Source: Pegea sp. RAD2-039
Taxonomy: Eukaryota; Chordata; Thaliacea; Salpida; Salpidae
Reading direction: 5' to 3'
NCBI GenBank assembly: GCA_034620365.1
Contig: JAQGEQ010000192.1
Location: forward strand, 1,545,001 to 1,609,000
DNA: 64,000 nt
Shown here: positions 69-64,000 of the stretch, piece after piece
Layout of the letters: every line of letters begins with the position of its first letter
Numbering within the stretch: position 1 is the first letter of the stretch
Program-made: the position numbers and the translations under genes
The notes under the pieces: generated by a model
Databases searched by the model: none
What the model was told of the DNA's origin: nothing
Seen by the model: only the letters and a program-made list of their open reading frames with translations

Positions 69-3000
69 ATCAACCAACTATCAGCAAGAAACCAAAGTTT
101 TCGAGTCAACATGACGTCATCAACGTCTGTTACGTCGCTGTTGTCAACTGATTAAATTTCAGAATCATGTTAAGGAGGAAACGATTGTGAATCCGAGTGA
201 TCTTGTGAAAGATGAAGAGAGATCAGATCAACTACCTCCTCCCACTTCCAACTATCTCGAACACACCACAAACGACCAACCAGCAACCACCACAACGACC
301 ACCACCGCCAACCAGCAACCATCTAAGTAACCATCATCTCATGTACCTTCAACTTCATCATCATAACTCTTCACTCAGACCCAAGCAATCCTCATCTCCG
401 CCTGTTAAAAGATCCATCAACGATCTTCCTCTTCCTAATCTTCTACCGATCCCTGGAACCGATGACTCATCTAGGAGCTCGCTAGAGCGCGAGTTATCGA
501 AGCGCAAACGCCCCAGGTTAGCTTAATCTCATCCCACCATCTTCTCGCTTCAACTTTCTTCTGTCCAGTATCTGTGGACCTCGAATCCGGGAGGTGAAAC
601 AGGGCAAGGACTGGGGCACGAGTTGTGTGGATGAGTATGAGATCTTGGGCATCACTGGTGAAGGGACTTTTGGTCAAGTATTTAAAGCCAAACATAAGAA
701 AGGGTCGTGTATATCTGCCCTGAAAAAGGTCACTCATCTACTTACCATCTTCTTGTTTATTTTAGCGATTGTTGTGTAGGTGCGGCTAGACAACGAGAAG
801 GAAGGTTTCCCCATCACCGCGGTTCGTGAAATCAAAATACTCCGGCAATTGAAACATTCCAACATCGTCAATTTAAAAGATGTACTTACCGACAAACCCA
901 ACGCTACTGACTTTCGGAAAGAAAAAGGTTGGTTGTTAGATGGTTGAGTTGGTTGTTAGATGGTTGAACTGGTTGCTAGATGATTGAACTGGTTGCTAGA
1001 TGGTTGAACTGGTTGCTAGATGGTTGAGTTGGTTGTTAGATGGTTGGGTCGGTTGTTAGATGGTTTGAACTAGTTGTTAGATGGTTGAGTTGGTTGTTAG
1101 ATGGTTTGAACTGGTTGTTAGATGGGTTTAACTGGTTGTTAGATGGTTGAACTGGTTGTTAGATGGGTTTAACTGGTTGTTAGATGGTTGAACTGGTTGT
1201 TAGATGGTTGGATTGGTTGTTAGATGGGTTGAGTTAGTTGTTAGATGGTTTGAACTGGTTGTTAGATGGTTGATCTGGTTGTTAGATGGTTGAACTGGTT
1301 GTTAGATGGTTAGTTTAGTTCAATGGTTCTTACATTTTTTCTGACACCATAACAAACATTGAAAAATTTTAACATTTCAAATGGTTATAAATCCATCAGA
1401 TATTCATCCATTAAATCTTGCTTACATCAACCTGATGGGTTTACTCGATTCTGGGATGGTTCACTTCACCGAAAAACACATCAAAGCTTTTATGAAGCAA
1501 TTACTTGATGGCTTGAACTTCTGTCATAAGAAAGGATTTCTTCACAGGTACATCTACCCTAATTTCATCCTCTTCATCTTTTCATCTACTTCTCGTTTCA
1601 GAGACATCAAATGCTCCAATATTTTACTCAACAACAAAGGAGAGATCAAGCTAGCTGATTTCGGATTGGCTCGTTTTTATCATCAAGATGAAGCGTGAGT
1701 CCTTCATCTTCTGATCTTCATCCTTAAATCTTCATCTTTTAGTCGACCTTACACTAACCACGTCATCACTTTGTGGTATCGACCGCCCGAACTGTTGCTA
1801 GGTGAGGAGATGTACACTCCTGCTATCGACATCTGGAGCTGCGGGTGAGTGTGTCCTCATCACTTCTTCTCATCTTTTTATCTTCAATCTTCACAGATGC
1901 ATATTAGCTGAATTATTCAACAAAAAGCCCCTTTTTCAAGCTGAGCATGATCTGGGTCAGTTAGAAGCTATCTTCCGCATTTGTGGGTCACCTTGTCCAT
2001 CAGTGTGGCCCGGAGTGGAACAGTTGTCACGTTACCGGACGATGAAGATGAAACGGATATATCGTCGATGCCTTCGCGAGCAGTTCCCTCTGTTAGTCGC
2101 TCTTTCTCATCAACTCTTTGCTCATCTTCTTCTCGTAGGATCCCGACTCTAGCGATGGATCTGTTGGATCAGATGCTGACTTTAGATCCCAAGAAAAGAT
2201 GTTCAGCTGAAGAAGCGATTAACTCACCATGGTTACGTAACGTTGATGCTGACAGTATGCTGATGCCAGAGTGAGTCCCAAAAGCTCCCAAATCTCTCCT
2301 TATCTCATCTTCTAAATAGATTCCCTCACTGGCAAGACTGTCATGAGATGTGGAGTAAGAAGAGGAGGAAGGAGCAGCGTGAGAACGCGAGAAACGCGGT
2401 TTTCGAAGCTAAGATGGTTGTTAGTTGCCACCTGTTCCCGTATCCGTTTGTTCTTTGATGATTGAACTCATTTAAAGGGTAAGAAGATGCCAAACAAAGA
2501 CCACGATAGTCGGTCCAACATGAAACAATCGAACGGTCGAAGTGAGAACGTAGTGAAACAGGAGGCCGGGACTCGAAATAATGGTCCAGTGAAGAAGAGT
2601 AGTAGTGGAGGGAAGATGTCAGATGCAGAAGTTGAACAGATCTTTAAAACTCGTAACATCGATGGCAATACCCTCAAAATTCTTTCTCAAGTTGGTAGCC
2701 AGGAGGTGTTGAAGATGTTGAAGACTACAGGAATGCAGATCAACTCACCAGGTAGATCCTTGCATCCTTAAATTGCTCTTTAAAGCTCTTTTTTGATGCT
2801 CAGAAAAAATCAAAAAAATTGTTCAAGTGATTGAAGATTTAAAAAATAAAGTCCCAAAAAGCTCTTCTTCAAGTAAGTAGTCTTCGTGTCACTCGATGTC
2901 ACGTGACATCGAATCACTCATCCACAGATGCTGCTGTCGATAAGCGACCAACTACAGTGGATAGCGAGAAGTCTCGACGATCAACCACAACTGATTGTGA

Positions 3001-3193
3001 TCGTAGAATCGCCCATAAACGTCCTAACAACGAAACTAATGTTCTGATATCCGACAAACAACCGGCTGGTGGCAGTAAAGAGTCAATCGGCTCGTCAAGT
3101 AGTAGTAGTGACAGTAAAAAGCTGAAAGATATGGATTTAAGAGCTGGACCGTCTCGTTCAAGAAATGATGTAAAAATGAAGAAAGTTTCATAA
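69..3193 (+). CDS. CDK12: CDK12/CDK13-type cyclin K-dependent kinase (5' partial)
   Basis: Transcriptional CDK that, with cyclin K, phosphorylates the RNA polymerase II C-terminal domain in the nucleus. I read 14 exons whose phases all agree: 69-115, 163-326, 379-516, 569-728, 780-927, 1400-1547, 1602-1694, 1743-1844, 1897-2091, 2139-2270, 2320-2416, 2478-2751, 2804-2872, 2928-3193, about 676 codons. Seen in order: a proline/threonine-rich N-terminal part with NDLPLP (the family has TDLPLP), [76 protein letters not shown], and the diagnostic extension [20 protein letters not shown]. The tail is serine-rich with [16 protein letters not shown]. The first exon begins after an acceptor at 67-68, so the true start lies outside the window. 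The exon after the long intron (from 1400) has a poorly conserved hinge. CDK12 and CDK13 are co-orthologues of one invertebrate gene, so the symbol is approximate. Confidence 0.93.
928..1316 (+). repeat. Minisatellite inside a CDK12 intron
   Basis: About 19 imperfect tandem copies of a 20-21 bp unit of the form GGTTGTTAGATGGTTGAACT. Variants include GGTTGCTAGATG and runs of GATGGGTTTAACT. The array starts at the splice donor itself (GAAAAAG|GTTGGT). It makes this intron 472 bp, while the other introns of the gene are 47-61 bp. The copies differ by scattered substitutions and one-base length changes, so it is an established array rather than a very recent expansion. Confidence 0.95.
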
Positions 3194-4807: not shown

Positions 4808-7800
4808 TTAACTTTTGTTTGTACAATTTGTGCAAGATCTAGTTGTAGTGCTTCTAGTAGAACCACAAAATGGACATTTAATAAAGTAGGAAGCATCCGA
4901 TGAAGATGGGTTTGAATCACTTTTTCCTGTAATCATTGACATTGTTTTATTAAAATTTTAATAAAAGTTGATTGGAAACACTACTGTTGTTACCATAAGT
5001 AGATTGTTGCCGAACAGATCGTCTGGCAATTTCATTGATGATCGTGTTCCGATATTCAGGAGTTAATTGGGGATAATTGGGTCTCTGTTGGACCCCATGA
5101 ACCCATTTCAACATTCCCTGTCATTTAATAATCATAAAATGATGTGAATGACGTTCAGATGTCAATTACCTCATCGCATTTAGCTGCTTCATGACTATTT
5201 CGAGAAAAATGGTTTGGAAACATCAACTGTGATGACGTCATCGATGGTTCTTCTTTACTGACAGATTTCAAAATTTAAATAAAAAAGAAGAAATTGAATC
5301 GAGAAGGTTTACTTCTTGGGTTTTGGTTTGTTGGCTTCGTAAATCTTGGAGCTGTTAGTCGAAGATCCTCGTGATGAGAGAGAAGCCATGATAGCGAGAC
5401 GAGATCGGATGCTGTCGTTGTAGGAAGATACTGGGAGTGGTTGAGGATATCGGAGCTGGAAGTTGGAGGTTGGTAACTGAAAAATTGGGAAGATATCAGA
5501 GATGAAAAGAAGATGAGAGGCAGATACTTGAGGATGTTCGAAGATCTTGGTGGGTGGCTTTTTATACAACTTCATGTCTTGGAAGGGGTAGAGATGAGCA
5601 GGGGCTAGATTGAAAGTTTGTTGAACCTCCGAAGGGAAAGAGTTAGGAGTAGGAGTCTTTGATCTACGGATCTTATGATCTTCAGATAAGTGATTCTGTA
5701 CTTTTTGTAATCCTGGATTAGGAGTCTTTGATCTTTGAATCTTTTCAAATGGAGCTTCTTCAGATGATTTTTGTTCTTTTGGTTTTCCATAAACAAATAT
5801 ATTTGTAGCTGATTTATTTGCTCCGTTTAATGTCTTCTTATCCGATTTCGTCTGTGAACATCTCATTCGCATCTTTCAAATAATTTAATAAATTGAAGAT
5901 TACTTGATTTGATGTAGTTGGTTGCTGGATGCTGGGCTTATCAGTATGAGAAGAAGAGTCTTTTGAGGAGTGTTTCATCTCAGTCAAACCATCATCTTTA
6001 TGATTGACTAGATTTGAATATTTGTTTTGTTCTTGTCTTAGTTGTTTCCTCCGTCGGAGAATTTTAGCTGAAAAATGATTAAAAGTCGAGAATCAGAACA
6101 TCTTCAGAATATTTTATATAATTATGAGATTAGCACAAGCTAAAAACACGAACAATCAGCATGATAACAACATTTGAAACACTAAAATGTATTTACAACA
6201 AATTAAAGATCACAAAATAAAAATCTTCTAATTAATTGCTTCAAGTGTTTTGTAAATAAAAGTTGGAACTTTACAATTAGCTGTTGCTTATATTTGTAGA
6301 AAGTTGTTTCACCCACCAAGCTTATTAGTTTCATCATACTTAATCGAAAACAAATGAGAGATTTCATCAGATAACTCGTTAGATGAAAGATGAATTTTTT
6401 GTAGAATTTCAAGAGCTTGGCAAACCAAGTCATATGCCAACTGGTAGTTCATTTGTTCATCAGCTAGTCGACATTGTTTCACCAACATGTCGGCTTCGAG
6501 GACTTGACTACTAGCTACCCGATCTTTATTGACATGAAGCAAACAATGAAACTTTTGAGGCTTAATTATAAAGATAGATGTAAAATAGATTCGTGAAAAT
6601 CTATCAAAGTTGGCCAAATTAAGTTTTAATAATTCTGCATTTGCCAAATTAGAGAGTAGTGAGCAGATAGCAAGCAAAATGAGTGATTAAAACATCAGAT
6701 GAATACCTGAAAGCGTGTTAAGAGGGTCTGTAAGTTTATTGGTGAGTAGTTGGTTTGGTTTGAAGCCAGTTAAGTTGGTGGTTTGGTGTTTTTGGTGGTC
6801 AGCGGGTGGGTCTTGTGGAAGGGCGGGTTTTGAAACTCCATGAGAGTTACGATCATGCAGGTCAGTGTCTGTTCACATACAAGTGATATCGTGCAGATGT
6901 GGATCATGCAAGCAAGATCAAGATGATCAAAAACTCACTTGATGTCTTCACATTTTCATCAGATTCCTCTTTCTTCAAAACTGAAAAATTTCCAGATTTG
7001 AATTTCTTCTTCAATTAGAGATTTCCTACCTGAAGAATTGATGCTTCTCGCGTTGTTCGATAGCGTCGTGTTGCTACTGACTACTGATGACGACGACGAT
7101 GATGACGTCACTGTCTTGTAATTGGATAATTTTCGATTGGGTATGATTGGAAGATTCTCGCATCTGTAGGCAGTGTTCAAAGATGAGTGATCTTCATCTA
7201 CATCTGAGATGAAAAGTCCTTTGTAAGAATTTGGATTCGAAAGATTCGGGGAGTTACTTCGATTCGGATCTTTTTTGGTGTTTGGATTTGTCTTTACGGA
7301 GTTCTAAAAAAGTGAAAAGATCAGTTGAGATAGGATGTAGATGGGACTGTTACCGGGTAAGGGGTGTATGTGGTCCACTGGGCGGTCACTGGTTCGTTGT
7401 AGCCTCTTATTTTGTTGTCTTGTTTTCGATTCCAAGTAAAAGCGGGTTTCTTTCGTTGATGAGACTCCGTAGAAGATGTGAGAGAAGTTGAAGATGAATG
7501 ACTGGATGCAGATTGGACCTCATCTGGGATCATATGATCAGCAAGTGATGAAGAGAATGATGAAATACTTGAAGTAGATTTCTCGTGAGAAGTCTTCAGA
7601 CGAGTCTTTTGAGATTTCAAAGTTCCGTTTGATCGAAGTGAGACATCTTCCTCTGTCACTGGCTTCCTAGGCAACGGGACTTTTTCGTGGATATCTTTAG
7701 AAGGTTTCGGCTCAGATTTGTGATTTAAACCATTTTGATGATGTGATGGAGATGAAGAGAAAGGATCTAAAGAAGATCTTTGATTAAAAGATGAAGATGA

Positions 7801-13951: not shown

Positions 13952-13958
13952 AAAAAAA
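13952..13958 (-). terminator. Pol III terminator of tRNA-Arg(ACG)
   Basis: Seven consecutive T on the minus strand, one base after the tRNA discriminator. Confidence 0.85.
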
Positions 13959-13959
13959 G

Positions 13960-17533: not shown

Positions 17534-20500
17534 TTACTTCTTATCATCTTCTTCAGGTATTTCTTCCATCTGAAAAACTTTCAATTATTCAACTCGATTA
17601 ATTTACAACAACGCCACCTTGTGGTCAAAACGAAGACTATCTTCATCAAGTAACTTTAAACTCATAAATTTATCATTAAAAAAGTCCTCAGAGCGATGAA
17701 CTCCAATCACAATCTCAACATCTTCTTTCGATTTTTTCTTCTCTAGAAAACGACGTTGAACCAAACTGATCTGTAATCAACATCCTCATCAACATCCACC
17801 CTTTCGTGTATCCCTCACTTTTTTTGATCTCTTCAACTGCCTGATATCTACATCGAGACCATCAACTACGAGAGGGAAGGGCTTCAAATAGCTTTCCAAC
17901 GTGACGTCATTGCTCTCGAGTATAGCATCTGCTCCTACCACATTCGGATCTTCATAGATTGTAGAAAGATCTGTAAAATCGCGATCTTTTCAACATCCAG
18001 TTTATTTCGGATGATTTTAACCTCCAACACTAGATGGCGTTGTTGATTCGTCATCACTATCATCGGATGATGACGTCATCAATTTGCTAGAACTGATCTT
18101 GAAGATATGACTCTTCCATCCAATAAGAAGATCGCCTGTTGCGTTGAGGAAGTAACAAGATGAAAGACTCTCATCCAGCTTGATCTCACTCAACAACTTC
18201 CCTTGTAGTCCCCAGATCTTGATCAGTTGATCAGTACTAAGTGAAAGATCTTAATCAATCAACATCCAGGACATCTTTTCTTCTACCTGACTGTACAGAA
18301 GACTTTTTTGGGAAGACACGAAGAGATACTGATCACTGCTGCACTGTGCACGTCATCATCTCTAAATCCTTCCTCTAGCTCCCTTCTCAGCGGTGCTAAG
18401 CAACAAAAACTATAATCTTACAAGCAACAGAAAGATGAAGACTCACAGGGAGTTTGGAGCTCATATAAGTTGACGACGCCATCTTTGTAACCAATAGCAA
18501 CGTAACCACCGAAAACTTCGTAGACACTGAAGTTGTTGCCGAACGCAAGTTGATGTTGGAGTTGCAGTGTGGGAAGAGACCATGTCTTCCGGAGCATATA
18601 TTGATGATAAGACTTACAAGATGTGAACAAACCTTAAAAGTGAAGAGCTCGTAGTCTGAGATAGTGATTAGCATCTTCTTTTTGTAGTTGTGTTGAACAT
18701 CCAACAAAGCTCTCCTGGCGGCTTTCAACACGAAATAAATTTGGTTTTGTTTCTTGCAATCAGCAAACAACAACGAACCATCTCGTAAACCAACTAACAG
18801 CATGTTTCTAAGACATTTGTTAAAGATGTTGTTTAACTTCATAAAAATCAACACCTTTTTAATGCAGAACAAACACCGAACGAGTGCGAGAAACGGAAAC
18901 CTTCAGATGAGTAACAAGTTGAAAGACAGGTAGCTGTAGAAAGCATCTTGCTTTCATTCCATAAACCAGCTTGATCGATTGCTACACTCATCTGGTTGTT
19001 ATATCTATCGTCCCAAGTGGACCGATAGTAACCAAACGTTTGTAGGTCATTGATACTCCATTCAGCAATTCTATATTGAAATTATTCATTTAAGATGATC
19101 TACTAATGAGGAAGAAGACTCACTTGCACGCCGGATTAGTCTTGCTCGTGTAAATCCAAATCTTTCGTGGAGTGACTAATAAATAAAATAAATTTTCAAG
19201 ACGATTGTACGCGATGCACATGACTCCAGCTACTACTAAAGGTGGTGTCAGCATCACACAAACAGAAGTACTAGACTCAATTGTGGGCTGATAAATACGA
19301 GCGCTACCTAGGAATGAGAAAACTGGTTGGAAGTTGACTTATCTCAACAACTTATTACTGTCTTCTCCAATAGTTACGATTAGTTTGTTCTTGTTGACAG
19401 CTTCACTTCCAAAGAAACGAACAATTTTACAGTTAGAGTAAGCCCACATATCTGTGTTACATGTTTGAAACTTGTAAAGATGAATCTGAAAGACACAATT
19501 AGTTTTTCTAATCTGATTGTCTTTAGATAAATCTACTTCTTTTTTTGACCCACACCAAACAACTCCATTTGAAAATGTTCCCATAAAAAAGACCCCGTTT
19601 AAACAAGTAAAAGTAGTATAGAATTCCTCTAGAGTTTTAAGGGACCATACTTTAATTACTCCATCAACAGAAGCGGAAAATAGTAAAGTGTTATGAGCAG
19701 CACAAAGAGATAAGCTGCATTTAAAAGTTAGCAAGTTTCTTGTTAATTTAGTCTGATTTTCAAAGTTTTTTTTTTAATTACACAAAAATAATTACTTCAA
19801 AAATGTTTATAGAATAATAGACTGACCTTTTAACAGGGTGGGTGTGTCCAGTAAAAGTTGAGATATGACTTCCTGTCTCGCTCCATATTTTAATTGAGTT
19901 ATCCAAGCTTGCAGAGATTAAAACTTGTTCAGATGATGAGAAGGTGATACAAGTAATTGGTAAGCCATGTGCTCTGCATACCAACCAAATAATTTAAACA
20001 TTCAGTTAATTGATGTAAAAAGTAAATCAATTAAGAAATACTGACAGCCAGGAATATAGGAGACTCATGTTTTTACACGAATAAACTAAAATGGTTCCTT
20101 TAGAACAGTAAAGAAGTTTTTGAGAAGCTTCAAGAAGAAAGATACATTCACATTCTGATCTACTCAAAATCGAATATTGAGCTTTTAGATATAAACTACA
20201 AATATATCAATTAATTAGGTATTTGTGAAAATTCTGTCATTAAAACCTATAATGAGAGTATGTGGCTAATGCTCCAATGGGTTGTTCATTTTTAACTTGT
20301 AATTTCCAAAGACTTGTACCTAATACACCATGAGTAATTAACTCATCCGTAATTGAATTAAATTGTACGTGTCCTACAGGATGTAGACACGAATCATCTA
20401 AAGTCTCAAACTCAGTTTTGAAATATTCATTCAAAATCTATGACAACAGAAGCATAAGGAAGTCTTAAATAAATGGAGTCAAAAATATGAATCAATAATA

Positions 20501-27039: not shown

Positions 27040-27041
27040 CA

Positions 27042-27468: not shown

Positions 27469-30400
27469 TTATTCGGCTCCATGTTGATTGAAGTCGATGT
27501 AAACCACATCACCAGAAATTGACATCAGCAATTGAGCTTCGTTTTTAGCGAAATTTTGTTTCAATATCGCCGATGTACACGAATACGCGATTAGCGCATT
27601 TCCACCCATCGCGTTTGCATGAGCGCGCGCTAATGTTTGCGCTTCAAAAATTGCTCGGGTGACAAACCAGTTGCACGCCGAAGGATGAGGCTCAGTGTCC
27701 GGCAGTTCTTCCTCAGATCCCCGAACTGCTGTCGTCTCACGAATGATAAAAAGATTAATCGATCCGAGATATCTGTAGATATTAGGGACATCGGATGCAG
27801 GAATCAGCTCAACTAAGCAGGAAGAAGTGAGATTATTTAGCTTGAGATGATCCAAATGGAAGTCTTCACTAAAATGTCGCTTCATCATCGCCACGATAGT
27901 GTTCGAACGTCGCAAGCGATGGATTAAAGATAAAGTATTTCCGGCTGATATAGCAGGGAAGCGAACAGAAGTCCGCCCTTCATCACTAACAGATCGGACT
28001 CTTTTGTTGATGCTCCGTGAGGTAAAAGTCTCTTTTTGACTCGAACTAAGAACTTGTTGGATCTGTTGAGGAGCGAAAGCGGATCCTACTAGCCAGATCT
28101 AGGACACACATGGATTCAGTTTCATCTAGATGATGATGACGTCATACCTGGAACTGATCATCGGTAAGGACGATATTAAAGCGAATGGAAGAGAAGTTAA
28201 TGACGTCATTGTGACATTTGCTGACACGGAATGTAAGACTAGCTAGAAGATCTTCACAACATTTGCGAAGAGCTGCGTTGAGATCAGATGTGCTACAATC
28301 ATCATCATATCTAATTCTTCTGAACATCTGAAAAGTCTTTAGAAGAAGATGAGATAAATGTAAGATTATGTCTTCATCTTACTTGACTAAGGACAAGATG
28401 TGAAGATTGATGAGTCGGCCAAGACTCTAAAGTTGTCAAAGTGATCTTCTCGTCTGGGAGATGATCTTCTAATAACATCACTACATCACCATCATCATCT
28501 AACTGAAACATAAAGTTGTGAAAATGAATCAAGGTCATCATTACTAACTGATGCTGCTGCTAGGGACTTCGCTACCAAGTTGGTTTTCTGAAGAGGAGTT
28601 GATTCTTTTAGGATCTTCTTGATCATCTACATCAACATCTTCAGTTTGATTAAATCTCAACAATCTTCAACTAACCGATTTTGTTCTTATTCCTGTTTTC
28701 AATCTTTTCTTACAAAGAGATGAGAATTCTTCAAGATTGTTTTGATGAGTCAGATTGCAAGTGCTAAAAACTGCCGTCTTCAAATCTTTAACATCAAAAG
28801 ATCTCTTCTTCAGATGAGGATCAAAAAAATCGATTCAAAATAATACCTGAAGGTTGAGAAGATGGTAAAGCTGCCAGCTTCACTCCTGTACCAGTCGCTA
28901 TTCCAATCAACAAATTCTCTCCAATTGAAATTGAGCTTTTCAAACCAAAGATCGCGTTCAAACCGCGTAACTACTCGACGAATATTAATGATGTTGGAGA
29001 TGAAACAGAAAATGTAGAAATTTACCTTTAACTTGCAATACAACTGACGATGTAACTCGTATTCAATAAAAGGCAACATCTCTGTAATATTCACTGCACA
29101 TGTCTCACCGGAGTTCTTTTTCTTAGTTCGACAAAATCTGTAGATGAAGATGTGAGAAGAACAGACGAAATGATGAGATCTACCTTGCTTGGATTAAACA
29201 ACAGCGACCGACTGTTTGAAGATTTGGAGGAAGATCGACTGTAGCTAGAACTATATCAGGGACCAAGCAATCAGGGTTTAAAGGAGACGGCTGAGGAGCA
29301 GAAGAGGGGACACAATTGAGAAGATATATCGGAATCTGGAATAACTTTGCATCATCAACTTCTTGCTCAATAGATCTATAAAGATGAATAAAGAGATTTG
29401 GATGAAGATTATTGGAGAGATTCACCTGGAAAAATTTCGGTTGTCTTGAGATTGGTTTTGGTCGCATTGAAATACATTACAATCATCATAAATATCATCT
29501 GTAAAAGAGTGAGTCACATACCAGCTACATCATTTGCAATCTTACATTGTTGAAAGTCTTTATCAACCATCGCAGCTGTTCCTTGTGCTGACATCAAGAT
29601 CACATCATCACTATAAAGATATCAATAAAAGAAGATACACAGATTGTTGATGAATTACCAAACAGAGGTTGTTTCTGTGTAACCCAAAACAGCATTGCAC
29701 CCAATAGATGAGCAATGATCTGTAATCTCTTGTCTAAGATCATTCCACCAGGTGTTCCTCGTGTCAGCATCATCTGGTGATGGAAGGATCTTTACAGATC
29801 TTGTACAAACTGTACTTGAGTATCTTTGAACGAAACCAGCAGCATGCTGTTTCATTGTTGAGAATAATAACTCCTGCGAGTAAACAATCTAGTAGCTACA
29901 TATACAAAGTTGAAGTCTTTATCTACCTCTTTTAAATGATTTATTTCTGAATGACCAAATTCAGTTGATGTCTGCAATCAGTTCATAAATTATAAAAAGC
30001 TTTCAATTTTATTTAATTGTAAATAAATGCAAATAAGATGAAAGAAGTTTAAAATCGTTTTTTAAACTCACAAATGAGGCGTTAAAACCACCTAGACTTG
30101 ACAGAGAAGTATAACTACTCTCATATTTGCTTAGTTTTTCATGTTTCGATCTAAAAAAAGATTTAATATTGATTTAAAGCTATTAGTTTTTTAATATTGA
30201 TTTAAAGATTACTTATGGAATAAAACACTGGTGAAAAATTCAACTTTCAGAGGTATTTATATAAAAAAACAAGTTTGATAAAAATAAAAATTATTAAAAA
30301 TCAAAAAAGGACAAATTTGAAAACTTTATTAAAATAATTTTGCATTATCTGGTTAGAGAATGAATCAAATCAAACAATATAAAAAAACTTTTTAAGCTTT

Positions 30401-35374: not shown

Positions 35375-35910
35375 TCATCGACTGATCTTCGGGAAAATCT
35401 CTAACGAGCAACAAACCACTTTATCAATTTCAACCACTAGGTGGTGGTAGTGAGTCACTATTTGATTACTGATATATGTCGCTGATTGGACGATTTCTTT
35501 CACTGATTGATTTGTGACGTCATAGATGAGTTTGTAGAGAGATGAAGAGAGATGCTGAAAGTCGATTTTCAAGATGAACACTGAATCAGTTGATCGTGAA
35601 ACCGCTAAACGCGCTTCATCTATCACATCATGTAAAAAGTCTCTGAAGAGCAAGATGTAAATGAAGTTCGATCTCATTCTGATTCATCTTGACATCATCA
35701 GGTGTGTCTCAGAAAAACGAGGAGATGAAGAAGTCACGTGACAAGGCGGAAGCTGCTAATCTGTCGCGAGAAAGATGTTCAGAAGAGTCATCGTCATCTA
35801 CATCCTGAATATTTTTCTTCTTAATTAGTTTCAGCTGATGAATCAAATATCCATGATTTTTCAAGGATTTCAATCTTCTAAAACTCCTCACTAAATGATG
35901 TCGATGACGT
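35375..35910 (-). CDS. 3' part of an unidentified spliced gene
   Basis: The probable last exon is 35642-35375, after the acceptor GCTCTTCAG. It has 89 codons ending in TGA, starts DFLHDVIDEARLAVSRSTDS and continues with YKLIYDVTNQSVKEIVQSAT. A likely upstream exon (about 35889-35760) reads SFRRLKSLKNHGYLIHQLKL then a DVDDDDSSEHLSRDR acidic stretch. The two do not join in phase at the donors I could find, so either a boundary is wrong or another exon lies between. The composition (amphipathic helix, few low-complexity runs) and the AATAAA just downstream support a real gene. I do not recognise the family. The exon carries a TGACGTCA (35515) and a CTCF-like motif (35434). Confidence 0.45.
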
Positions 35911-36480
35911 CACTGTTTCCACAGAGATAAGCACATCACTGATGACGTCATTACTGGCTTCGGCTTACACAAGAAATGACCTCAGGACCAATGAAGCGAC
36001 TGTTGTCCTAGCTTTCATTTCGTGGTCAGTCTCACAACCACTTCACGTGATCTGATGACGTCATCTTAGATTAGACTTGTGCATCGAGACCTTTTCGCAG
36101 ATTTCTGACCAGTGGGGATCCTGCAAGGACCTTTTTCGCGTCATCGCGATGATTCCATTACCAGGTGATCACGTCAACACGTCTTAGTCGTTTATGACAG
36201 AATTTAAGCTGCAACCACCTCAATGCTGACCACTTAGTGGTCGGTGGACACCCTTTATTGCAGCAGCGAGTTGCAACTACGAATTGTCGATTTTGACCTT
36301 AAGATAATTTCAAAAGTCAATTTAAAAGTAAAGAGCTTCGTATCTATCATCATAGCAACCACCGCTCGACCCCGCGATGACCTCTGTCAGCGGATAATGT
36401 TGTCTTAGTTACGCTTCAGCAACAGCTTAGCAGTATTGTATATAGACCTTGACCTTCATATGAACTGTGAACTGTCACGT
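35905..36480. promoter_or_regulatory. Dense cluster of regulatory-like motifs
   Basis: Within 580 bp: TGACGTCA at 35905, 35943 and 36056; an E-box CACGTG at about 36045; the palindrome GACCACTTAGTGGTC at about 36229; repeated GACCTT at 36445-36456; and TGAACTGTGAACT at 36461-36473. It is GC-richer than its surroundings and lies directly upstream of the minus-strand exons at 35.4-35.9 kb. This fits a promoter/enhancer, or GC-rich introns and UTR of an unseen gene. Function is inferred only from motif density. Confidence 0.4.
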
Positions 36481-36924: not shown

Positions 36925-36964
36925 GACCGACTAGCAGCAACCATTTATGAGCAACCAGCAAAAC

Positions 36965-42900: not shown

Positions 42901-45900
42901 AGTTAACTGACCTCTATACAGCTAATTAAAACCACAAATAGCAATGAAAATTGGCAAGAAAAATTGGCAGATTAAATGACTTAAACTGCTTGAATCGAAT
43001 AAATTAAAGAAACTATTTTTATCACTTCAGTAAAGAGACATCTTATATCAAAATACAGGTAAAAGAAATATATACCAGAAACCAACTTACACGATATATC
43101 AGTCTGACAATAAAAACTTAATAACCTTTAGTAAGTTTTTTAATTAATCTAATTTTATAGAGACAAGAGCTCTTCACTGAGTTAGACTTTCATGAAAGCA
43201 ACTGAAAGTTGCTTAAAGCATCTCACTATAGTAATCTTCTACTGTGTGATTAAGTATCATTAAAATTATAAATGTCAAATTTGTCTGCTTAAATGTTTTT
43301 GCTATGAACTTAATGCAGGAATTAAATTATTAAGTGTAGCAATTACTTGTTATTCCTAATACTTTTTTGTCGGTTCTTTTAAAATGATGAATCATTAAAC
43401 TTTTTTGTGGATTCAAATTTATGTTATTTAAGATGCCAGCCAAGAACAGCAGAGTTTAAACTCTATGAAGAGATCTAAGAAAGAACAAAACTAACTTTTC
43501 TTTTTTTGTAACAGCAGAAAAAGCATTATAATAAAAGTAGTTTTTTTTAAAGGTGTTATTTCTTAATTTTAAATTGCTTTTTTTAGGCTTCTAAACCAGT
43601 AAAAGCAACAATGACAATAATTGATTATTTGGTTTTAGAATTAATTTTTTTATTTATTACTTTGCAAGTGAAAGTTTTTACATTAACCTTATAATAATTT
43701 CTATTTCAGTAGTCAGTGAAAATTTTTACATTAAGTAAAGCTAATAAAAGCATTTTTGAAAAGTGTAGTTAGTTATTTTATATATCTACAAGAGCCATAA
43801 GGTTAAAAAACTTATTAATAAATAATTGAGTACTTGTATAGTCTAACTGATTCATTTATATTCATTTATTGGATTTCAGCTATTGGAAAAGATGTTTTTA
43901 CTTAAATTTGAAATTCTTAATAGTATGCATGGTACTATTAGAAAAATTATTTGAAATTTTTTATACTCAATTACAATCAGATTATTTTCAAATTTGAACT
44001 ATCATGTTATTTTACTCATTTAGCCAAATTAATTAATAATTTCTTTGTGGCTTTCTAATTTTTATATATTTATAATAAATTGCAGGTGTGCAGCTTGCGG
44101 TGTTTTGAAATTTCTCTCTTACAAATGATGAATTCATTTTGAAGTCTAAATTTTTTAACAAATAAATTTCATAACAACAATTATATTTTTTGACAAAAAT
44201 ATTTCACAGATTTTTATTGACTTTAATACTTTTTTTTCAAAAGAATTCTTCCCTAAAAATTGTCGGTGACAAGACACTATCTTTGTAAATTAAAAAAAGT
44301 GGAAGTTATTGTTAGTATAAAGTCTACAATTATCTTGAAGTTTTCTTGTTAAAAACATTTCTGTTTATTTTTAGTTCTTTATAGCGTTTGCTAGCGAAAT
44401 TGTTCAAAGCCTTGCAAACATTTATATACAAAACTAAGAACTAAAGTTTTGTAAATAACTCTCAGTTTGATTGTTTACTTTCTGCTACAAATTTCTAGAA
44501 AAGTACTTAAAAGTAAAACTATAATTAATAAAACTTTACACGTAGAACACTAGAAAAATTGACAATGAATTAAAATCTAGCAGACAGAGTATTTTTTAAT
44601 TGATTAAATATTTAATGTTTCATTTGAGAAGTTATTAATTGTTTTATTGATTTTTTGTTGTTATTTGATTGACATAATTTGAAATTCATTTTTTAATTAC
44701 TCATTGATGTCCCAAATAGTTTAAAGAAGATATTTTGAAAACAATTTGAAGATAGCGCAGATGTTATCGAAAGATAGTTGTGACAGCGACTTTGGTGGTC
44801 ATGTTATGATTTATCATTTGAATTAAAGATAAACAAAAGAATTAAAAATGTGAAGTTTATATCATCCAAGAAACTGCTGCTAATTCGCTTAGATCAATTC
44901 GGTGTGACCTGTCAGTTTATTTTAAATTATAAACCCAGCAAAGTTTCTGAACTGTTATTTACAGAAAAACTTTAAAAAATTTCTTTTAAAAACTTGACAA
45001 ACAATAAAAGCATTCATAGAAAATATCAACCATCAATAAACACGTTTTCTAACTCTTTTTCTATTTTGTTTTTTTCGGTTATTTTTCTGCTTTTAACCAC
45101 TCAAGCAATTAAACAGTTAATTAACTTGTAAACATGACTTTAATAAACCTTGGATTGTAATAAAATGTCCAATAAAGTGTTTCTAAAGAATTAATTTTTT
45201 AACAACCCAATCTATGCTATCATAACCAACAAAAGTTCTTTTCAATCACCCGAACTGACAGATTCGCTTTTGATATTTGTAAGTTATAGGTTCATTTTAA
45301 GGTCTATATGCTCTTCTGTCAATCATCCAACAAATGTGCACTCATGCGGAACTCGATGATGGGTTGAAGAATTGAAAAGCAGAAATTAAAATTATGAAGA
45401 TATCTTCAAAAAAAAAAATTTTTGAAACTTAAAGAAATTTTCTTTAAATGTTAAGAAAATAATAAAGACTTTTTTCTGATCAATTTCGGAATGTTAAAGA
45501 TGATACGAAGCTTTCATCAAATCATAAATCAATTTTCAACACACCTCTGTTCACGTGACTTTTGTTTCACTTAAGTACAGACAAATATGACGTCATACCT
45601 GTCACTCAAGTAACAGGTATGGGTCATATAAGCAATTGACAAAGTTCAGTAAGAAGTTTTAGATGTCTAAATCTATTTCAATTAATACTAACTAAAATTG
45701 CAAATATATCAGTTTTTACTTGAAAAATTCTCAATTAAATTTTTCATCAATAGCATTATAGCTGACTGTTTGGAAGAAATCCAAACTTCAAGTTATTCAA
45801 AGTTCATGTAAAGTGCATGTTTTTACTAATTGAAAATTGTTGTAAAATTTATGCCAGAGAAAAACTGGTAAGGAAAGATTTTTTTTGTAGTTTTTTCATC

Positions 45901-48900: not shown

Positions 48901-51900
48901 TTTTTTTAAGAAGATTTACAATTGACATGATAATACACTGAAGTCTCAAAAATGTTTTTTTAAAGATTTATTTGATCTGCTTTTTGTGAGTTTGTAAGGT
49001 TTAGTTTTTTTAGACTTCAAATAATCTTATCTAGCCTTTATCTTACTTTTCTTGGTTACATTTAAAAATGAGTTTTTTGTGAAAAGATACTAAATTTTTC
49101 TTATCTAATAAGATCTTGAATTCCTCAGTTCAAATATTTTCTTTAAAATCAAAAAAAGTCTGTAATAATGATTTGGGAAAAATCGAAAAATAAATTGTTA
49201 TCAAGATTGAAAAAATCATCTTCTAACATGATAGTGATCACATGAACTTAATAATATATTTTGATATTTTAAAGAAAAAAATTAAAAGCTTCAAAGTTTT
49301 TTATACAAACTGTTAAAAAATGATGATTGGATAAAAATGCTGACAGAAAAATTGTAATGACCTTGTATTCTAATTGATTCAACAAACCAAAAGTAGGTTT
49401 TATTTGAAAAAAAATAACTTTGAATCACTAAAATGATAGAAAACTTGTTGTAAATATAATAATTGTTTTGAGTCATCATTATCTAATGACTATAAAGCTT
49501 TGGCTGAAGAACATAAAGCTTTTCTGAGTTGATTTTAATTTGATTAATTGTATAATTACAATTACTAAAATGATAAACTTGTTTATATACTAGTTGCTTG
49601 ATCAAGCAGTTTTAAGAATAATATTTTTAATGAGTAATTTCTGTGTTCACCTTGTTTTGTTATTAATTTAAAATTAAATAAAAAAGGTTAAAAATAACTA
49701 ATTTTTTAGATGTTACAAGTTTATATTTGAATTTAAAAATACTTTGTTTACCTTTTTTATAACCAATTTATCATATAAAATATCAGTGAATACCCATATG
49801 CACTTGGTAAATAAACTTTGATTATTGTAAACTTCTTTGCTTTCATCGATTCAAGCTTTGTACATCTTGTAATACTTGACTGATTTATTTCAACACTTAA
49901 TTTTGATTGATTTAGCTTTCATCAGAGCTTGAATAAAGAGCTGAAGTTAAATAACCAACGAGTTTTTAAGTGAATTTTAAGAGAATTATTTCAATCTTGT
50001 TCTATAGATCAAGTGATTAATGATAAAAATCAAAGGAATAAATTAAAAATCAAATCAAATAAAAATATTAATATAATTTGTAAAGTTCTAGTTAACCATC
50101 TAGAGTTGATTGAGAAAAATTTGTTTGAAAATTACAGAATAAGTTTTATAAAGGTTGAAGTCCGACTTTCAATTATATCGAAGTTGTTGTTGGAATTACA
50201 TTTAATGTTATTCCAGTTTGTTCCAAAACGTGAAAACTTGTTTTTTATCATCCTTCAAAAACAAATAAATTTTCATTAGCTTGCAAAGCATATATTTTAA
50301 TTATATACCAAAACATAAGAAGTAAAAAGATTAGTTTTAAAAAAGCTTTCAGCCGTTTAAAGTTTATAAAGCTTAGATAGGATTTGATTTTAAACACTTG
50401 AAAGAATTGAAGAGTTTTGTTTTATTAACAGCTAAATAAATTCTATAAAAATATTTCCATTTGCTCTCGGGTAACTCATGCTGAAAAATTCATTTTTATA
50501 TTGATTCATAATTACTTTATTAAAATGCTTTCTGTCATCAATTATTTATTAACAATTATTTAGTTAACTAATTTATAATGAGATTAGTTAGACAGTGTTT
50601 AATGATATCTTTTCAAATATCTCATACTAGTTATAATCAAGTATAAGGAATTTACTGAAGCATATTTACATTTTGGTTCTAACACCAAATATTAAGTCAT
50701 TTATTAGAAATTCTACACATATTTCCAACTATACAAAATACTCATTTATTTAACATTTGTTCATGTTGTCAAACTGAAGAGCTATTAAAGATTGTCAAGT
50801 GGTTGAGGTTACAGACATGTAAGTATTTACTCCGATTAACAAGACAAAATCATAACGTCGAGCATAAAATGATCGATAGGACAGATTCTTATTTAGAATC
50901 ATTATAGATTCATTTTTTTAGTTTCAAGTTCAATTACTTTTCATATTTACAATACTTTAGTTTTTTTTTTTTGAGTTTTTATTCTTAGTTTTTAGGGATT
51001 ATTTTTTATCTTTCTCATAAATGCCTTTGAATAAAATTACAGAAAAAATCTACAAATTTTTAATAAAGTTTTGCTAATTTGATTTTTTAAATCTATTTGG
51101 GTTTTCTTAGAGTCATATCTAAAGATTTAATGAAACATTATGGTTTAAATTTGTTAAAGTATTTACAGAAAGCAAAGTATTTTTTGACAGGCTTATTTTG
51201 ATTGGAAGCAAAACCTGCACAAGTAAATTTCTTGTGTTGAAGGAAACCAGTTAAAAGTTATTGAAGTTGTACAGCATCATAATCCATTTAGTCTTTTTGT
51301 TCAAAACCAAACAATTTCTGCTGTAAACATGGTCAGGCAAGGTAGCTACTAATCACAGACTTTATTAAAACAATTTTCTGAAAAGAATTTAAGATTTTAA
51401 TCTTCTCTTTCTTCCAAATGCTGTGTTTAGCAACTAAAACTTATTCCTAAATTTCTAAAACAATCCATCTAGCATAAGAATCAATTTTTGATAATCTTAT
51501 TTCTCTAGTTCTGATAATTCAGTAAATTAAATTAAAAATATCTTTGACTTTTGCTGATTAGTTAGTTCATTAACTCGTGTCGTTGATGACGTCATCACTG
51601 ATCAGTATTGTTAGTTGTTAAAAAAGCATTTTTGAACATTTGGAATATATTATTTTTTGTCAGAAAGATTTAGAAATGATTGATTTTCTTTTTATTGTGT
51701 ATTTAATTTCAAAGTTTTAATCTTCAGTAATTTTATTGATTTAATCTTTTTAAAAAATAATTGATGAGATTGAATAAGGTATGTGAGAAGTTTTTCTTAT
51801 CATTAATTTTAATTTAAGACAGAAATAAAAAAAAAGAATTCTTAATAACTGAGAAAGATGAAGCATAAAAAGCAATGTTAGCAAATATATCAAAAACAAA

Positions 51901-52460: not shown

Positions 52461-53560
52461 TAAGATAATAAAGGAAGCTTTAGATCAAATATTAAAGCTG
52501 CTGTTGATTAAAACACTAATCGATCTACAGGTGAGTGGAAACAACATTTCAATTGGTAATCTGTACAATCAATCAATCTAAATTATTTCTTATTTTGTTT
52601 TTTGATTGGCTGATAATATCGTACTGAGATTGAAAGACGGATTTTTTAGGATTAGAAGTAATTTGAAAGTCTCAGAGGTTCCGATTCATTGATAAGTTTA
52701 ATGCTACCTGATCAAAACATCCAATCCAAGAGATTCATCTGATCGGATGTCTTCTCTAACCTTCAATTAGTCGAAACGAATCAATCCTTTGAAAATCTTA
52801 GCTCTGAGGACTTTATAAAAGAACAATTGATTAAAGATTTGAGTATTAAGGAAGATATTCGAGAGATGATGACTGTCAGAAGTAACTAATTTTAGTCGAA
52901 TTCACTTTGAAGATAACCAAATGATCACGTGACTTGCCGAAAATCAGATTGAGAAATAATTAGTTGCTTATTTATAGTAAGAATTGCCAATTGGAGTTAT
53001 CCATTAGATCGTTGATTTTGGGAATTCACGCTTTCTTAAGTCACGTGCAATTTTCTACCACCTGCAATGATGACGTCATAAGCGCGTAAGCAGTTCACCT
53101 TCTGATTTACATGGTATAAATGATTTCACATCGCGTCTGACCTTATTTAGTAGAGAAAGATCTGCAGATGTGTGTACAGTTTCACCTTGAAGCAGATGTT
53201 TTATTTAATGAGAGTATCTTCATCTTTGGAAGAGTTCAGAGTAGTCGGAATATTTGCTCCAATATTTCCATTAACAAATATCAGACGTTTGCTGAGATTG
53301 AAAAGTTTAAATCAGGGTATCTCTTTTTTAACTGGGTTACGTTAAAACGCAATCTCTTTGAAAGATCCCAGTATCAGAGTCTTTTCTTCTCATCGGAGAT
53401 CAAAGCTTATCAACCATCAACTAAGTCACGTGGTCAGTTTGATTTGAGATACTTTGTATAATGATCTAACAGAGTCTGAATATTAGTTTATGATAAAAAG
53501 CCTTTGAAGAGCACAATAGACTGATGAAGTCATTTCCGGTATTAATTAAACGTTCATCAT
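52461..53560. other. GC-richer islet with a 97-codon ORF
   Basis: An islet of about 1.1 kb. It has an exon-like end at about 52531 (CTACAG|GTGAGTGG), an E-box/TGACGTCA pair (CACGTG near 53042, TGACGTCA at 53071), and an ORF at 53168-53461 on the plus strand. The ORF begins MCVQFHLEADVLFNESIFIF and ends RGQFDLRYFV. It has balanced composition compared with desert ORFs but no recognised family. A TATA-like GGTATAAATG lies at about 53112, some 55 bp before the ATG. It may be a small gene or a non-coding transcript. Confidence 0.3.
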
Positions 53561-53561
53561 G

Positions 53562-59500: not shown

Positions 59501-60330
59501 AAATTTAATTTATTTTTGAATAATCTCAGCCAAGTTTGATTTAAAATAGCTCACAAGTTCACTAAAAAAGTTTTTTATAAACCATTAAAAGGCAAACAAA
59601 AATTGAACTCTTTGAGGTCATAATATCAGCTCTTTTACGATCTCTTATTGATAATAAATCCATGAATATAGTCAGCTAAAGAGTATTTCACGGAATTATT
59701 CTCATCATTCAAGTATTTCATCAAATATCAACAGCTCATCAAAAATCTGAAGTCTAGTGACAAACAGCAAAATAAAGAAGACATCTTCAATATTTTGATG
59801 ATCAGTGAATCGGATGTGACGTCATAAAGTTGATCGAAGGGTCAGTCGCCCGAAGCTTTTGATAATTTTGAACTTTATCAAGTTGCTCAGAAACTCGGCA
59901 AGTAAAGCTACTATTGAGCAAACGAGATGTAGTTAGTGGTGGGGACAGAAAAGTAAAGCTAAAAACAAATATGGCCTAGAGAATAAACTTTTGGTGGCCT
60001 TTTGAACCAGGTAAGGTTTGCAGTCTGACTGAAAAAGTAAACTTGGTCAAATGATCAACAAATTTCCCTGTTTATTTTGAAGATTGAAGAGAAATATTTT
60101 GAACTTTACATGAAGCTTTCAAATATGTGTTCATGTTGCTTATGTGGACACAAGTTGTGCAGTTACAATAGCACACACAATTGCACATGTACAAGCTTAA
60201 AAACACACACACACGTCAGTATCAGATATTCAATATATATTAAAGACTTAAAACAAGCGTTTAAGTAGTTATAAAGAGTCACAAACTCTTTTCATCTTTT
60301 TATAATATCAAGGGACAAAGAGTTGGAAAT
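53562..60330. other. AT-rich gene desert, part 2
   Basis: About 6.8 kb with no supportable gene. ORFs at 56852-57079 and 60077-60268 look random. Islets with slightly higher GC lie at 54280-54540, 54830-54930, 56280-56370, 58640-58700 (with CCACGTGAC and GTCATGAC) and 59800-59900 (TGACGTCA at 59817). A short CA run (ACACACACACAC) lies at about 60200. Confidence 0.55.
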
Positions 60331-60713
60331 AATCTCATAATAAAAGGTGCCATGAACCACAGAAAGGTCGATCTAATCTTACAATCAGATATTATTATAA
60401 TCATGTCCAATTTATTGGGAATTTTTTCAACGATTGCCTTGTTGGCTTCCATAGAAAGGCGAACGTACAGAGGTCATACTTGGCCATATTGGTCATTGGG
60501 TCATCGGTTGAAGGTTATTCAGAAAAAAACGAATGGATACGACAAGAGATTTTCTTATCTTCTTACTTCCTTTTAGCATTTGCTGCCCTTTTCACTGCAT
60601 CAACATTAGTTGAGTTGGATATTGATGGACATTTATTCAAGGGTCAAATCTCTTTTACCACAAACAAGTCTTCATCTTTTTGTTATTTTCCGTCTATTTT
60701 TACAGTGAGGTAG
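60331..60713 (+). other. Open frame with a possible membrane segment, no ATG
   Basis: A frame open from about 60331 to 60713, apparently without an in-frame ATG. It reads NHVQFIGNFFNDCLVGFHRK, then YLAILVIGSSVEGYSEKNEW, then a hydrophobic stretch SSYFLLAFAALFTASTLVEL and DIDGHLFKGQ. It looks more protein-like than the overlapping ATG-started frame (60352-60576), and could be an exon or a decayed gene. I do not recognise it. About 1.5 kb upstream of CYP26. Confidence 0.3.
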
Positions 60714-62197: not shown

Positions 62198-62276
62198 CTT
62201 TTTGAGCAGACCGCGTCTTACTCTGAAGCGTCATCTAACAGTAGCACGAAAATCGAAATTTTGAATGAAAAAATGA
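62198..62276 (+). promoter_or_regulatory. CYP26 leader: acceptor-like site and 3-codon uORF
   Basis: A pyrimidine-rich acceptor ends in TTTTTGAGCAG at 62209 and leaves a 63-nt leader. An upstream ATG at 62265 starts ATG AAA AAA TGA. Its stop overlaps the main start as ATGA (62273-62276), an arrangement that can permit reinitiation. Confidence 0.5.
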
Positions 62277-64000
62277 AAACATTAGCAACCAATCAGAATG
62301 CAGATGCAAGTTACGTCATCAAAACGATCGAGATCATGACGTCATACTCACCGGTTTCCTTCTTCGATTTGATAACCACTCTATTGAGTTTGATGATATT
62401 TAAATACATTCTGGACTTTTTGTGGACTCTTTACCACCGAAAACTCGCGAATGATCCCGATGCCGGTGACGTCATCAATCTTCCCTTGCCTCCTGGTTCA
62501 TATGGGACCCCTTTGATTGGCGAAACACTCAGCTGGCTTCGACTGGTCAGTATTTTGTTGCTACTAACAACTAATTATAATTTGATGCTAACATAAAAAG
62601 CACCTTCATGACGTCATCACCGTCGTACTGACGTCATCAAAATATTTTGATTTGAAAAGGTCATAGCAGATTGACCTCAAGATTTGAACTCAACTCGTAT
62701 CATGCTTCACTGCTTCTTCTAAACTCACAATGACGTCAAGCATATATCATATCGCTGATGACGTCATATTTAACCTGCAATTTTGTGACGTCATTACTTC
62801 TTTTTTACGCAGGGCGAACGTTTCAATCGATTAAGGCGACAGAAGTATGGTAACATCTTTGCAACCAACGTTCTTTTCATGCCTATGGTCAAAGTAACCG
62901 GACATGATCACGTCAAAGAGGTCAGTGACGTCATCAGCGATGTGATCACTTCCGCTAACTTCAAACAATTTCAGATTTTGAGGAGTGAACACACCAAAGT
63001 GACCACCATTTGGCCTCGAAGTGTCCGGGACATTTTAGGGGCTAATGGTCTGGTCAACTCTTCGTCATCTGTCCATCGATTTAAAAGACGAATCGCGAGC
63101 AAAGCGTTCACTCACGAAGCATTAGATGGTTACTTACAGTCCATGTACCAGTTGTCAGATGCCAATGTAAGTCACTCTGATTATGGGTCAGTGGTCAGTA
63201 ACAAATGTGGTTTTCGACCAGGTCGCTGCCATGGCAACTTATGAACGTCCCAAAGTCTATGACATGATGTTGAGACAAACATTTGATATTGCGGTCAACG
63301 CCCTGTTGGGTCTAGACGTCACTGCTGGTCACGATCTTGACGAACTCTTTGTAACTTTCAACGATTTAGTTTCCAATATTTTCTGTATTCCTTGTCGAGT
63401 TCCAGGTTTTGGATACGCAACGGTGAGACGCGACTACTTTATGATGACGTCATCAATATTCGTCAAATTTCAGGGTATGAACGCGAGAAAGAAGATTTTG
63501 GATCTACTTCATTCTCACATCACGCGTAAGAAGTTCTGGTTGAAAGATGAAGTTCAAAGAAGTAAAGGAGATTTAAAGACACAAGGAAACTTAGGTGCGA
63601 TTGATATTATTCTACGGGAAGAAATGATGTCTCAACTAAAGTAAGATCACTTAAGATTGATGCAGAGATATTGATTGGATGCTAATGTAGATCAGGAAAG
63701 ACATCAGAAGTTAATGAAGATCAGGGACTGGATGAACTGACGATGAAAGAGATGTCAATTGAATTGATGTTTGCTGGCTACTTCACAAGTGCAAGTGCAA
63801 TCTCATCATGTGTCTTGGAGCTTGCTCTTCATCCTCATGTCTTCCAAAAACTTGAAGATGAATTGATCGATTTCGACTTCATCAATTCCGACCGAACCGC
63901 TTCTCAACCCTGCCCTCTAGTGGACAGCAATCTCATTAATCAGATGACTTATTTAGACAAAGTTGTGAAAGAGACTCTAAGATTACGTCCCCCAGTTCTT
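62273..64000 (+). CDS. CYP26: CYP26-type retinoic acid hydroxylase (3' partial)
   Basis: Cytochrome P450 that inactivates all-trans retinoic acid by 4-hydroxylation in the endoplasmic reticulum. Exons with consistent phase: 62273-62545, 62813-62920, 62975-63166, 63222-63422, 63474-63640, 63691 to the window end, 417 codons so far. An N-terminal hydrophobic anchor (SPVSFFDLITTLLSLMIFKY) is followed by the proline hinge LPLPPGSYGTPLIGETLSWL. Family segments include IWPRSVRDILGANGLVNSSS, RRIASKAFTHEALDGYL, the I helix ELMFAGYFTSASAISS and the K helix KETLRLRPPVL (ExxR). The I helix lacks the usual acidic residue (AGYFTS), as I recall for CYP26B1/C1. The heme-binding Cys lies beyond the window. 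Intron 1 (267 bp) is packed with TGACGTCA; the others are 50-55 bp. One 54-bp intron (62921-62974) keeps the frame open and could be mistaken for coding sequence. A CTCF-like motif sits in the last exon. Confidence 0.94.
62658..62677. promoter_or_regulatory. Inverted AGGTCA half-sites in CYP26 intron 1
   Basis: AGGTCA (62658-62663), 8-bp spacer, TGACCT (62672-62677). Both are perfect nuclear-receptor half-sites, in the first intron of a gene whose relatives are retinoic-acid induced. IR8 is not the classic RAR/RXR spacing (DR5, DR2), so receptor binding is a hypothesis. Confidence 0.4.

Follow-up and report, generated by a model that had tools for sequence, protein, structure and literature searches.

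The palindrome TGACGTCA is far above chance in the genome of the salp Pegea sp. and is crowded in small GC-rich islets and in introns of very short length

The window, meaning the whole stretch of 64,000 nucleotides of Pegea sp. DNA that was analysed, contains 24 exact copies of the octamer TGACGTCA and, at its end, the 5' part of a P450 gene (Table 1). The P450 gene, which we take to be CYP26-like, was modeled with 6 exons and 5 introns and is open once spliced, with the start codon assumed. A paralogue of the 1.6-kb P450 stretch was sought to follow gain and loss of sites, and no second match was found in the genome. All 24 copies begin where the original prediction placed them, with no further ones in the window, and none lies in the stretches of ELAC2, NTAQ1, SDS and WRAP53, in agreement with their reported absence from these genes. 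The copies were also said to be confined to GC-richer DNA, which holds for 22 of them (500-bp tiles with a G+C content of at least 0.32) but not for two in tiles of 0.20–0.28. The extension to GATGACGTCATC ascribed to many copies is exact in only 5 of the 24, whereas 14 of the 24 match ATGACGTCAT.

Table 1. Copies of TGACGTCA and P450 gene features in the window.
Feature	Position	Strand	Remark
Copy	112..119		
Copy	5233..5240		
Copy (ATGACGTCAC)	7103..7110		
Copy	17902..17909		
Copy within GATGACGTCATC	18071..18078		
Copy	28137..28144		On the minus strand, begins 3 nt inside putative intron (CAG/GTATGACGTCAT); splice site by eye
Copy	28201..28208		
Copy, GC-richer islet	35515..35522		
Copy, islet of 35515 copy	35905..35912		Next copy 38 bp away
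Copy, islet of 35515 copy	35943..35950		
Copy, islet of 35515 copy	36056..36063		TCACGTGA at 5 bp
Copy, AT-rich desert islet	45588..45595		TCACGTGA at ~30 bp
Copy within TGATGACGTCATCA	51587..51594		
Copy	53071..53078		GTCACGTGC at ~30 bp
Copy	59817..59824		
P450 gene, 5' part	62273..64000	+	p450 match 1e-28; runs on past window
Copy by 5' end of P450 model	62337..62344		Counted as exon
Copy, P450 exon	62467..62474		Encodes G-D-V-I
P450 intron 1	62546..62812	+	267 nt, 5 copies
Copy, P450 intron 1	62609..62616		
Copy, P450 intron 1	62629..62636		Exactly 20 bp from 62609 copy
Copy, P450 intron 1	62731..62738		
Copy, P450 intron 1	62759..62766		
Copy, P450 intron 1	62786..62793		
P450 intron 2	62921..62974	+	54 nt, one copy 5 nt from 5' end
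Copy, P450 intron 2	62926..62933		
P450 intron 4	63423..63473	+	51 nt, one copy
Copy, P450 intron 4	63445..63452		

A genome-wide count, set beforehand as a check, upheld the excess: in the whole genome (105.7 Mb), TGACGTCA occurs 27,792 times, compared with 969 for the reversed word. It is about 40 times commoner than TGTCGACA, a CpG palindrome of the same composition (695 copies). The 12-mer GATGACGTCATC is present 3,824 times against 4 in the control count, corresponding to 13.8% of the TGACGTCA copies. In the window, Markov models predict 0.47 copies (order 1) or 1.7 (order 3, a figure raised by the motif itself), and 100 dinucleotide-shuffled versions contained 0.32 copies on average and never more than 2. 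Tiles of 500 bp with a G+C content of at least 0.40 contain 12 copies versus 0.12–0.19 expected, indicating that base composition does not account for the excess. The density of TGACGTCA is patchy, with 64 per Mb in C1:1–1.56 Mb versus 263 per Mb genome-wide, and clumping is strong, with 24 copies within 10 kb at locus L007. Elsewhere in the assembly, a search for COX1 gave no match, and the parts of six contig ends that were inspected showed no clear telomere repeat.

The original prediction did not mention that many sites fall inside spliceosomal introns roughly 50 nt long. Three genes from site-rich stretches, encoding tankyrase, formin and P450, were spliced by hand, and 16 of the 31 introns in these models carry TGACGTCA. 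Over 2,703 bp of intron there are 26 sites (0.05 expected), and over 6,022 bp of exon there are 4 (0.12–0.15 expected, an approximately 30-fold enrichment); the absolute densities are untypical because the tankyrase and formin genes were picked in clusters. An exonic placing of several sites in open frames was abandoned, since splicing put many of them in introns. In the RIM-like locus L007, four sites share a single linker reading frame. A codon or peptide origin does not fit the presence of sites in introns, in islets and in two reading frames, and was rejected. Collectively, these results confirm that TGACGTCA is far above chance across the genome and is concentrated in small GC-rich islets and in introns of very short length. 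Its density and placement are unusual, and a literature search with partial coverage found no paper describing such a genome. Papers containing the 12-mer GATGACGTCATC deal, by title, with promoter design and word theory.

Alignment of the flanks gives a single symmetric motif, TGA-TGACGTCA-TCA, with background nearly reached beyond 3 bp. Among 51 sites not fetched for the 12-mer, position +1 is T (.69), C (.21) or A (.02), and a purine before or pyrimidine after the core (+1 T or C) is found in 90% of half-sites; +2 is C at.41, +3 is A at.55, and farther bases are close to background. The left and right flanks of these sites are independent, with both-TC sites numbering 9 against 8.2 expected. 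The pooled 102 sites show the same pattern (both-TC in 25 of 102), with figures inflated by loci reached via the 12-mer (L001–L004, L007 and L034). In a 214-kb sample that includes one cluster locus, the half-sites TGAC and GTCA occur as pairs only when directly abutting (58 at spacing 0 versus 0–4 at spacings 1–12), which gives the contiguous 8-bp palindrome TGACGTCA. The AP-1 word TGACTCA is not enriched in this sample (21 versus 22–28). In GC-rich tiles taken without selection, words one base off TGACGTCA are slightly over-represented, with 22 versus 13.5 for all twelve, 4 versus 0.9 for TTACGTCA and 7 versus 3.3 for TGATGTCA. Genome-wide, TGATGTCA counts 11,070 versus 2,673 for its reversal, 1.7–2.4 times the extrapolation from the 214-kb sample. 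CpG decay was discarded as a full explanation of TGACGTCA, TGATGTCA being only mildly raised. A second regulator palindrome, TCACGTGA, counts 4,614 genome-wide versus 237, and lies within 300 bp of TGACGTCA in 11 of 41 cases in C1:1–1.56 Mb (1.2 expected).

Closely neighbouring copies tend to be spaced by about 20 bp, or two helical turns. In a small sample of 17 close pairs, 7 are at exactly 20 bp and 11 at 19–21 bp (P about 1e-6 against uniform spacing), with 9 of the 17 coming from six loci picked for the 12-mer. When only the window and unselected places are counted, 4 of 6 pairs fall at 19–21 bp, and locus L035 gives 0 of 2. No helical phasing at longer range was seen among 72 distinct listed pairs 39–68 bp apart. 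Co-binding may account for the two-turn spacing. Tandem arrays of the motif with a 20-bp period also occur, and one 20-bp pair sits inside a tandem array.

A cognate bZIP is encoded in the genome. A CREB1-like bZIP with a pKID is found on contig C14, where the bZIP matches PDB CREB1 at 8e-20 and the pKID match is located about 4 kb upstream, and a JUN-like bZIP is found on contig C34. In total, 12 bZIP matches were retrieved from the genome, with no obvious expansion. The 14-bp consensus of the sites, TGATGACGTCATCA, presumably corresponds to the extended bZIP SELEX motif of the JDP2/ATF7/BATF3 type; this exact string was not found in the literature search, whose coverage was partial. The sites resemble the CRE in being an exact palindrome with R/Y flanks and a partner word, CACGTGAC, and in showing no surplus of the TRE (TGACTCA). 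One comparative study ranks the CRE among the top conserved words in worms, flies and mammals, as upstream elements (PMC551538), whereas in Pegea it is spread through the whole genome and, within site-rich genes, is dense in short introns and some exons. The counts, symmetric flanks, companion palindrome TCACGTGA and CREB1-like gene support the idea of a genome-wide CRE/bZIP palindrome, and the same sequence features suggest a regulatory role.

Judging from these sequence patterns, we consider it probable, with moderate confidence, that the copies are true binding sites of CREB/ATF-type bZIP proteins and have built up through weak selection or through a bias linked to binding. TGACGTCA would form the core of a palindrome recognised by a CREB/ATF-type bZIP dimer, with the preferred flanks described above. 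Weak selection for numerous small control elements, both within and between genes, may favour bound sites; alternatively, a fixation bias tied to binding may do so. The sites would gather wherever coding constraint and CpG loss permit, which would concentrate them in introns, islets and the linkers of proteins. The AT-rich genes may lack sites because germline methylation removed their CpG. The exon enrichment and the linker sites of L007 are not predicted by plain enhancer selection and speak against the CREB/ATF reading.

A purely molecular origin would make TGACGTCA a eukaryotic counterpart of cyanobacterial HIP1 (GCGATCGC), with sequence-dependent modification, repair or conversion making and keeping the palindrome while individual sites are not useful. 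Both words are palindromic octamers far over expectation in coding and non-coding DNA, and TGACGTCA is genome-wide with a small halo of one-off words. The Pegea genome also has 11 C5-methyltransferase matches, of which 7 occupy single open frames of 832–873 aa and some adjoin one another, and in cyanobacteria HIP sites accompany matching methyltransferases (PMC4390886). However, the Pegea methyltransferase genes are at most candidates for a GACGTC specificity, and the affinity-like flanks and the second palindrome TCACGTGA follow a TF-site pattern. HIP1 is a different word, for which that paper gives a density of about one per 1000 nt (PMC4390886), whereas TGACGTCA is strongly clumped rather than fairly even (64 per Mb, 263 per Mb and 24 in 10 kb, as above). 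We therefore regard a HIP-like origin as unlikely. Slightly less doubtful is a CRE palindrome that spreads and persists through a bias tied to binding or modification, so that it comes to occupy short introns and islets and even adds D-V and M-T-S peptides to protein linkers under loose constraint.

A splicing or intron-definition signal read in RNA could explain why 14 of 26 introns of at most 60 nt carry a site in the three site-rich genes, two of these introns ending in TGACGTCATAG or TGACGTCATCAG. Yet 12 of the 26 lack one, sites also occur in intergenic islets and exons, and an RNA signal has no need of a palindrome. Neither a fixed place nor a strand-specific form was found among the 16 short-intron and 26 intronic sites of these genes: the position varies from 3 to 41 nt from the intron 3' end, and gene-strand flanks are equally palindromic (TCA on the left in 12 of 26 and on the right in 15 of 26), making such a signal very unlikely. 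The original prediction also raised descent from a dispersed repeat, an idea that is already largely refuted; a small transposon, for example, could have left its terminal inverted repeats or the footprints of its excision. The 12–14 bp extension is palindromic, and local duplications or tandem arrays include some of the copies (209 nt at 90% in L034; 20-bp arrays), but these few local duplications apart, the copies have little in common past 3 bp on each side, with flanks near background from the fourth base on. One-off decay words are few and the P450 stretch is single in the genome, so that this origin appears highly improbable. Equally improbable is that the word acts in meiotic recombination, as M26 (ATGACGT) does in fission yeast, and that GC-biased conversion produced the GC-rich islets. 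The motif includes ATGACGT, minisatellites occur in site-rich stretches, and M26 is a CRE-like site bound by Atf1-Pcr1 (PMC9775316); an ATF/CREB binder would be shared. However, M26 is defined by hotspot activity, conversion is expected to erase motifs that initiate breaks, and the same paper notes the absence of hotspot activity at a CRE in ade6 (PMC9775316).

If the sites are functional, this salp would have very many CREB-type sites, many of them in introns of about 50 nt, and would offer a natural test of whether introns this small act in gene control. If the single sites have no function of their own, they would show, in an animal, a molecular bias maintaining a short word, which is the question left open by HIP1, and a process acting on DNA that leaks into proteins. 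In both cases the system offers a well-defined starting point: a single motif at 27,792 places, distinct compartments and a named candidate binder.

The CRE/bZIP palindrome TGACGTCA had been claimed to be strongly over-represented in the window, and all 24 copies were recovered where the original prediction placed them, against a mean of 0.32 in shuffled sequence. The window covers 64 kb of contig C3, and the whole genome comprises 105.7 Mb in 387 contigs. Genome-wide, the octamer occurs 27,792 times, compared with 969 for the same word read backward. The CpG palindrome TGTCGACA, matched to it in composition, has 695 copies, and the reversal of TGTCGACA, which lacks CpG, has 1,659. The extended 12-mer GATGACGTCATC has 3,824 copies, compared with 4 for its reversal.

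The octamer sites are clumped along the genome. The first 100 on contig C1 span 1.56 Mb (64 per Mb); 23 of the gaps between them are shorter than 200 bp, where about 1.2 would be expected. Nineteen 10-kb places fetched regardless of motif hold 13 sites, and 24 are found within 10 kb at L007, a locus picked inside a cluster. Across the window, these nineteen places and six contig ends, tiles with GC ≥0.40 contain 18 sites (0.16–0.27 expected) and tiles with GC <0.28 contain 5 (about 0.4 expected). The excess is thus present everywhere and strongest in GC-rich DNA, and base composition does not account for it. CpG observed/expected is 0.9–1.0 in cluster loci and 0.46–0.69 in tiles with GC <0.32, a contrast that hints at germline methylation behind these compartments, with only 0.57–0.80 in unselected tiles with GC ≥0.32.

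The first flank count combined 102 sites, roughly half of them at loci found by way of the 12-mer, and was therefore redone on 51 sites from the window, the unselected places and the formin locus. In these, 90% of half-sites have T or C directly after the core and 2% have A; the next two positions favor C (41%) and then A (55%), and those beyond are near background. Left and right flanks are independent (both TC at 9 sites, 8.2 expected). Pairing of TGAC with GTCA is confined to abutting halves, with 58 cases versus 0–4 at spacings of 1–12. In unselected tiles, the core reaches 29 versus 0.46 expected at GC ≥0.34 and 4 versus 0.42 at GC <0.30, and the twelve one-substitution words together reach only 22 versus 13.5 and 28 versus 22.2, respectively. 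Much of this small excess is due to TTACGTCA and TGATGTCA, the latter with 11,070 counts genome-wide versus 2,673 for its reversal. The flank and variant pattern resembles an affinity landscape more than the decay of a repeat. A satellite-like stretch accounts for nearly all the CAATCGTA excess in the sample.

Coordinates and matches of features in the window and elsewhere in the genome
Feature	Location	Observation
Tankyrase	L034	Ankyrin, SAM, PARP; PDB tankyrase-2, 7e-97
Formin	L035	FH2, 2e-85
P450	Window	Family match, 1e-28
L007 gene	L007	PDZ and C2 domains; exons judged by eye, unspliced
C5 DNA-methyltransferase matches	C57:819728-826344	Outside window; two, adjacent, opposite orientation
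C5 DNA-methyltransferase match	C249:1740707	Outside window
C5 DNA-methyltransferase matches	C32:10146-38173	Outside window; three, close together
C5 DNA-methyltransferase match	C52:9209	Outside window
Minisatellite	Window 930-1311	About 19 copies, 20-bp unit
ELAC2 duplication	Window 10984-11031	Perfect 23-nt tandem duplication
Satellite-like stretch	L016:1-3200	149 copies of CAATCGTA or complement

Among 17 neighboring pairs within 30 bp, nine of them from 12-mer-reached loci and the set drawn from fetched loci and the window, 7 lie exactly 20 bp apart and 11 lie 19–21 bp apart (P ~1e-6). A spacing of 19–21 bp holds for 4 of 6 pairs in the window and unselected places and 0 of 2 in the formin locus. 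Apart from one tandem array, spacers appear unrelated when inspected by eye. Elsewhere the octamer is also found in tandem arrays with a 20-bp period, so duplication may contribute part of the peak. Gaps of 31–60 bp separate 4,195 pairs genome-wide, versus 2 in the control, and no phasing was found among the 72 distinct pairs listed. The site-rich L007 and L034 also carry 14-, 15-, 19- and 20-bp minisatellites, some intronic.

Three genes were spliced by hand, with open frames and family matches as checks: tankyrase and formin, whose loci were picked for lying in clusters, and the P450, presumably CYP26-like. A Pfam search with the P450 open-frame pieces alone gave no match. The octamer is present in 16 of the 31 introns, and in 14 of the 26 of ≤60 nt. 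It occurs 26 times in 2,703 bp of intron (0.05 expected) and 4 times in 6,022 bp of exon (0.12–0.15 expected). In short introns its distance to the 3' end ranges from 3 to 41 nt, and its flanks are similarly palindromic when read on the gene strand. Most introns (26/31) are 45–59 nt long, 5' splice sites are loose (GTAAG, GTGAG, GTATT, GTTTG, GTCAG, GTCCT), and there is no clear pyrimidine tract. In the L007 gene, which we take to be RIM-like, some sites fall in putative introns and four share a single serine-rich open frame of 206 aa. Three introns identified by eye in AT-rich WRAP53 and SDS contain none. In AT-rich ELAC2, the duplication lies between two long open frames and disrupts the reading frame there; it could be a mutation or an assembly error.

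A second palindrome, TCACGTGA, presumably a typical bHLH-zip site, is also abundant (4,614 copies genome-wide versus 237). In C1:1-1.56 Mb, 11 of 41 copies lie within 300 bp of TGACGTCA (1.2 expected), three of them overlapping it. When words in GC-rich tiles were ranked with tandem repeats masked and chosen loci among the input, the TGACGTCA family came first, and TCACGTGA and CACGTGAC were within the top ten. One study places the CRE among the top conserved words of worms, flies and mammals, and CACGTGAC among those of mammals (PMC551538).

The genome has 12 bZIP_1 matches, a number that does not point to a large expansion. One of them resembles CREB (PDB CREB1, 8e-20), and its contig also has a pKID match about 4 kb upstream of it; another is JUN-like. 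After the basic-region Ala-Ala pair, the former has Lys for Arg and the latter His for Ser relative to the solved proteins (loci L032 and L033), and this change could tune flank preference. SELEX work has shown that the flanks confer a sub-structure on the CRE and that different bZIP pairs have preferences for it (PMC5349851).

The abundance of the octamer, in exons as well, might stem from a binding- or modification-linked bias; this would make it a eukaryotic counterpart of HIP1 in cyanobacteria (PMC4390886). The exon enrichment and the small halo of one-substitution words keep this parallel alive, but the patchy density argues against a close one. Methyltransferase genes are encoded in the genome. 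Seven C5 matches, each a single open frame of 832–873 aa, have the look of a multi-copy family that is perhaps mobile, and a split DNMT-like gene lies on C49; methyltransferases have reportedly been found inside retrotransposons. The simplest account is that the TGACGTCA copies are real CREB/ATF-type sites, whose abundance may alternatively reflect weak selection favoring numerous control elements within genes.
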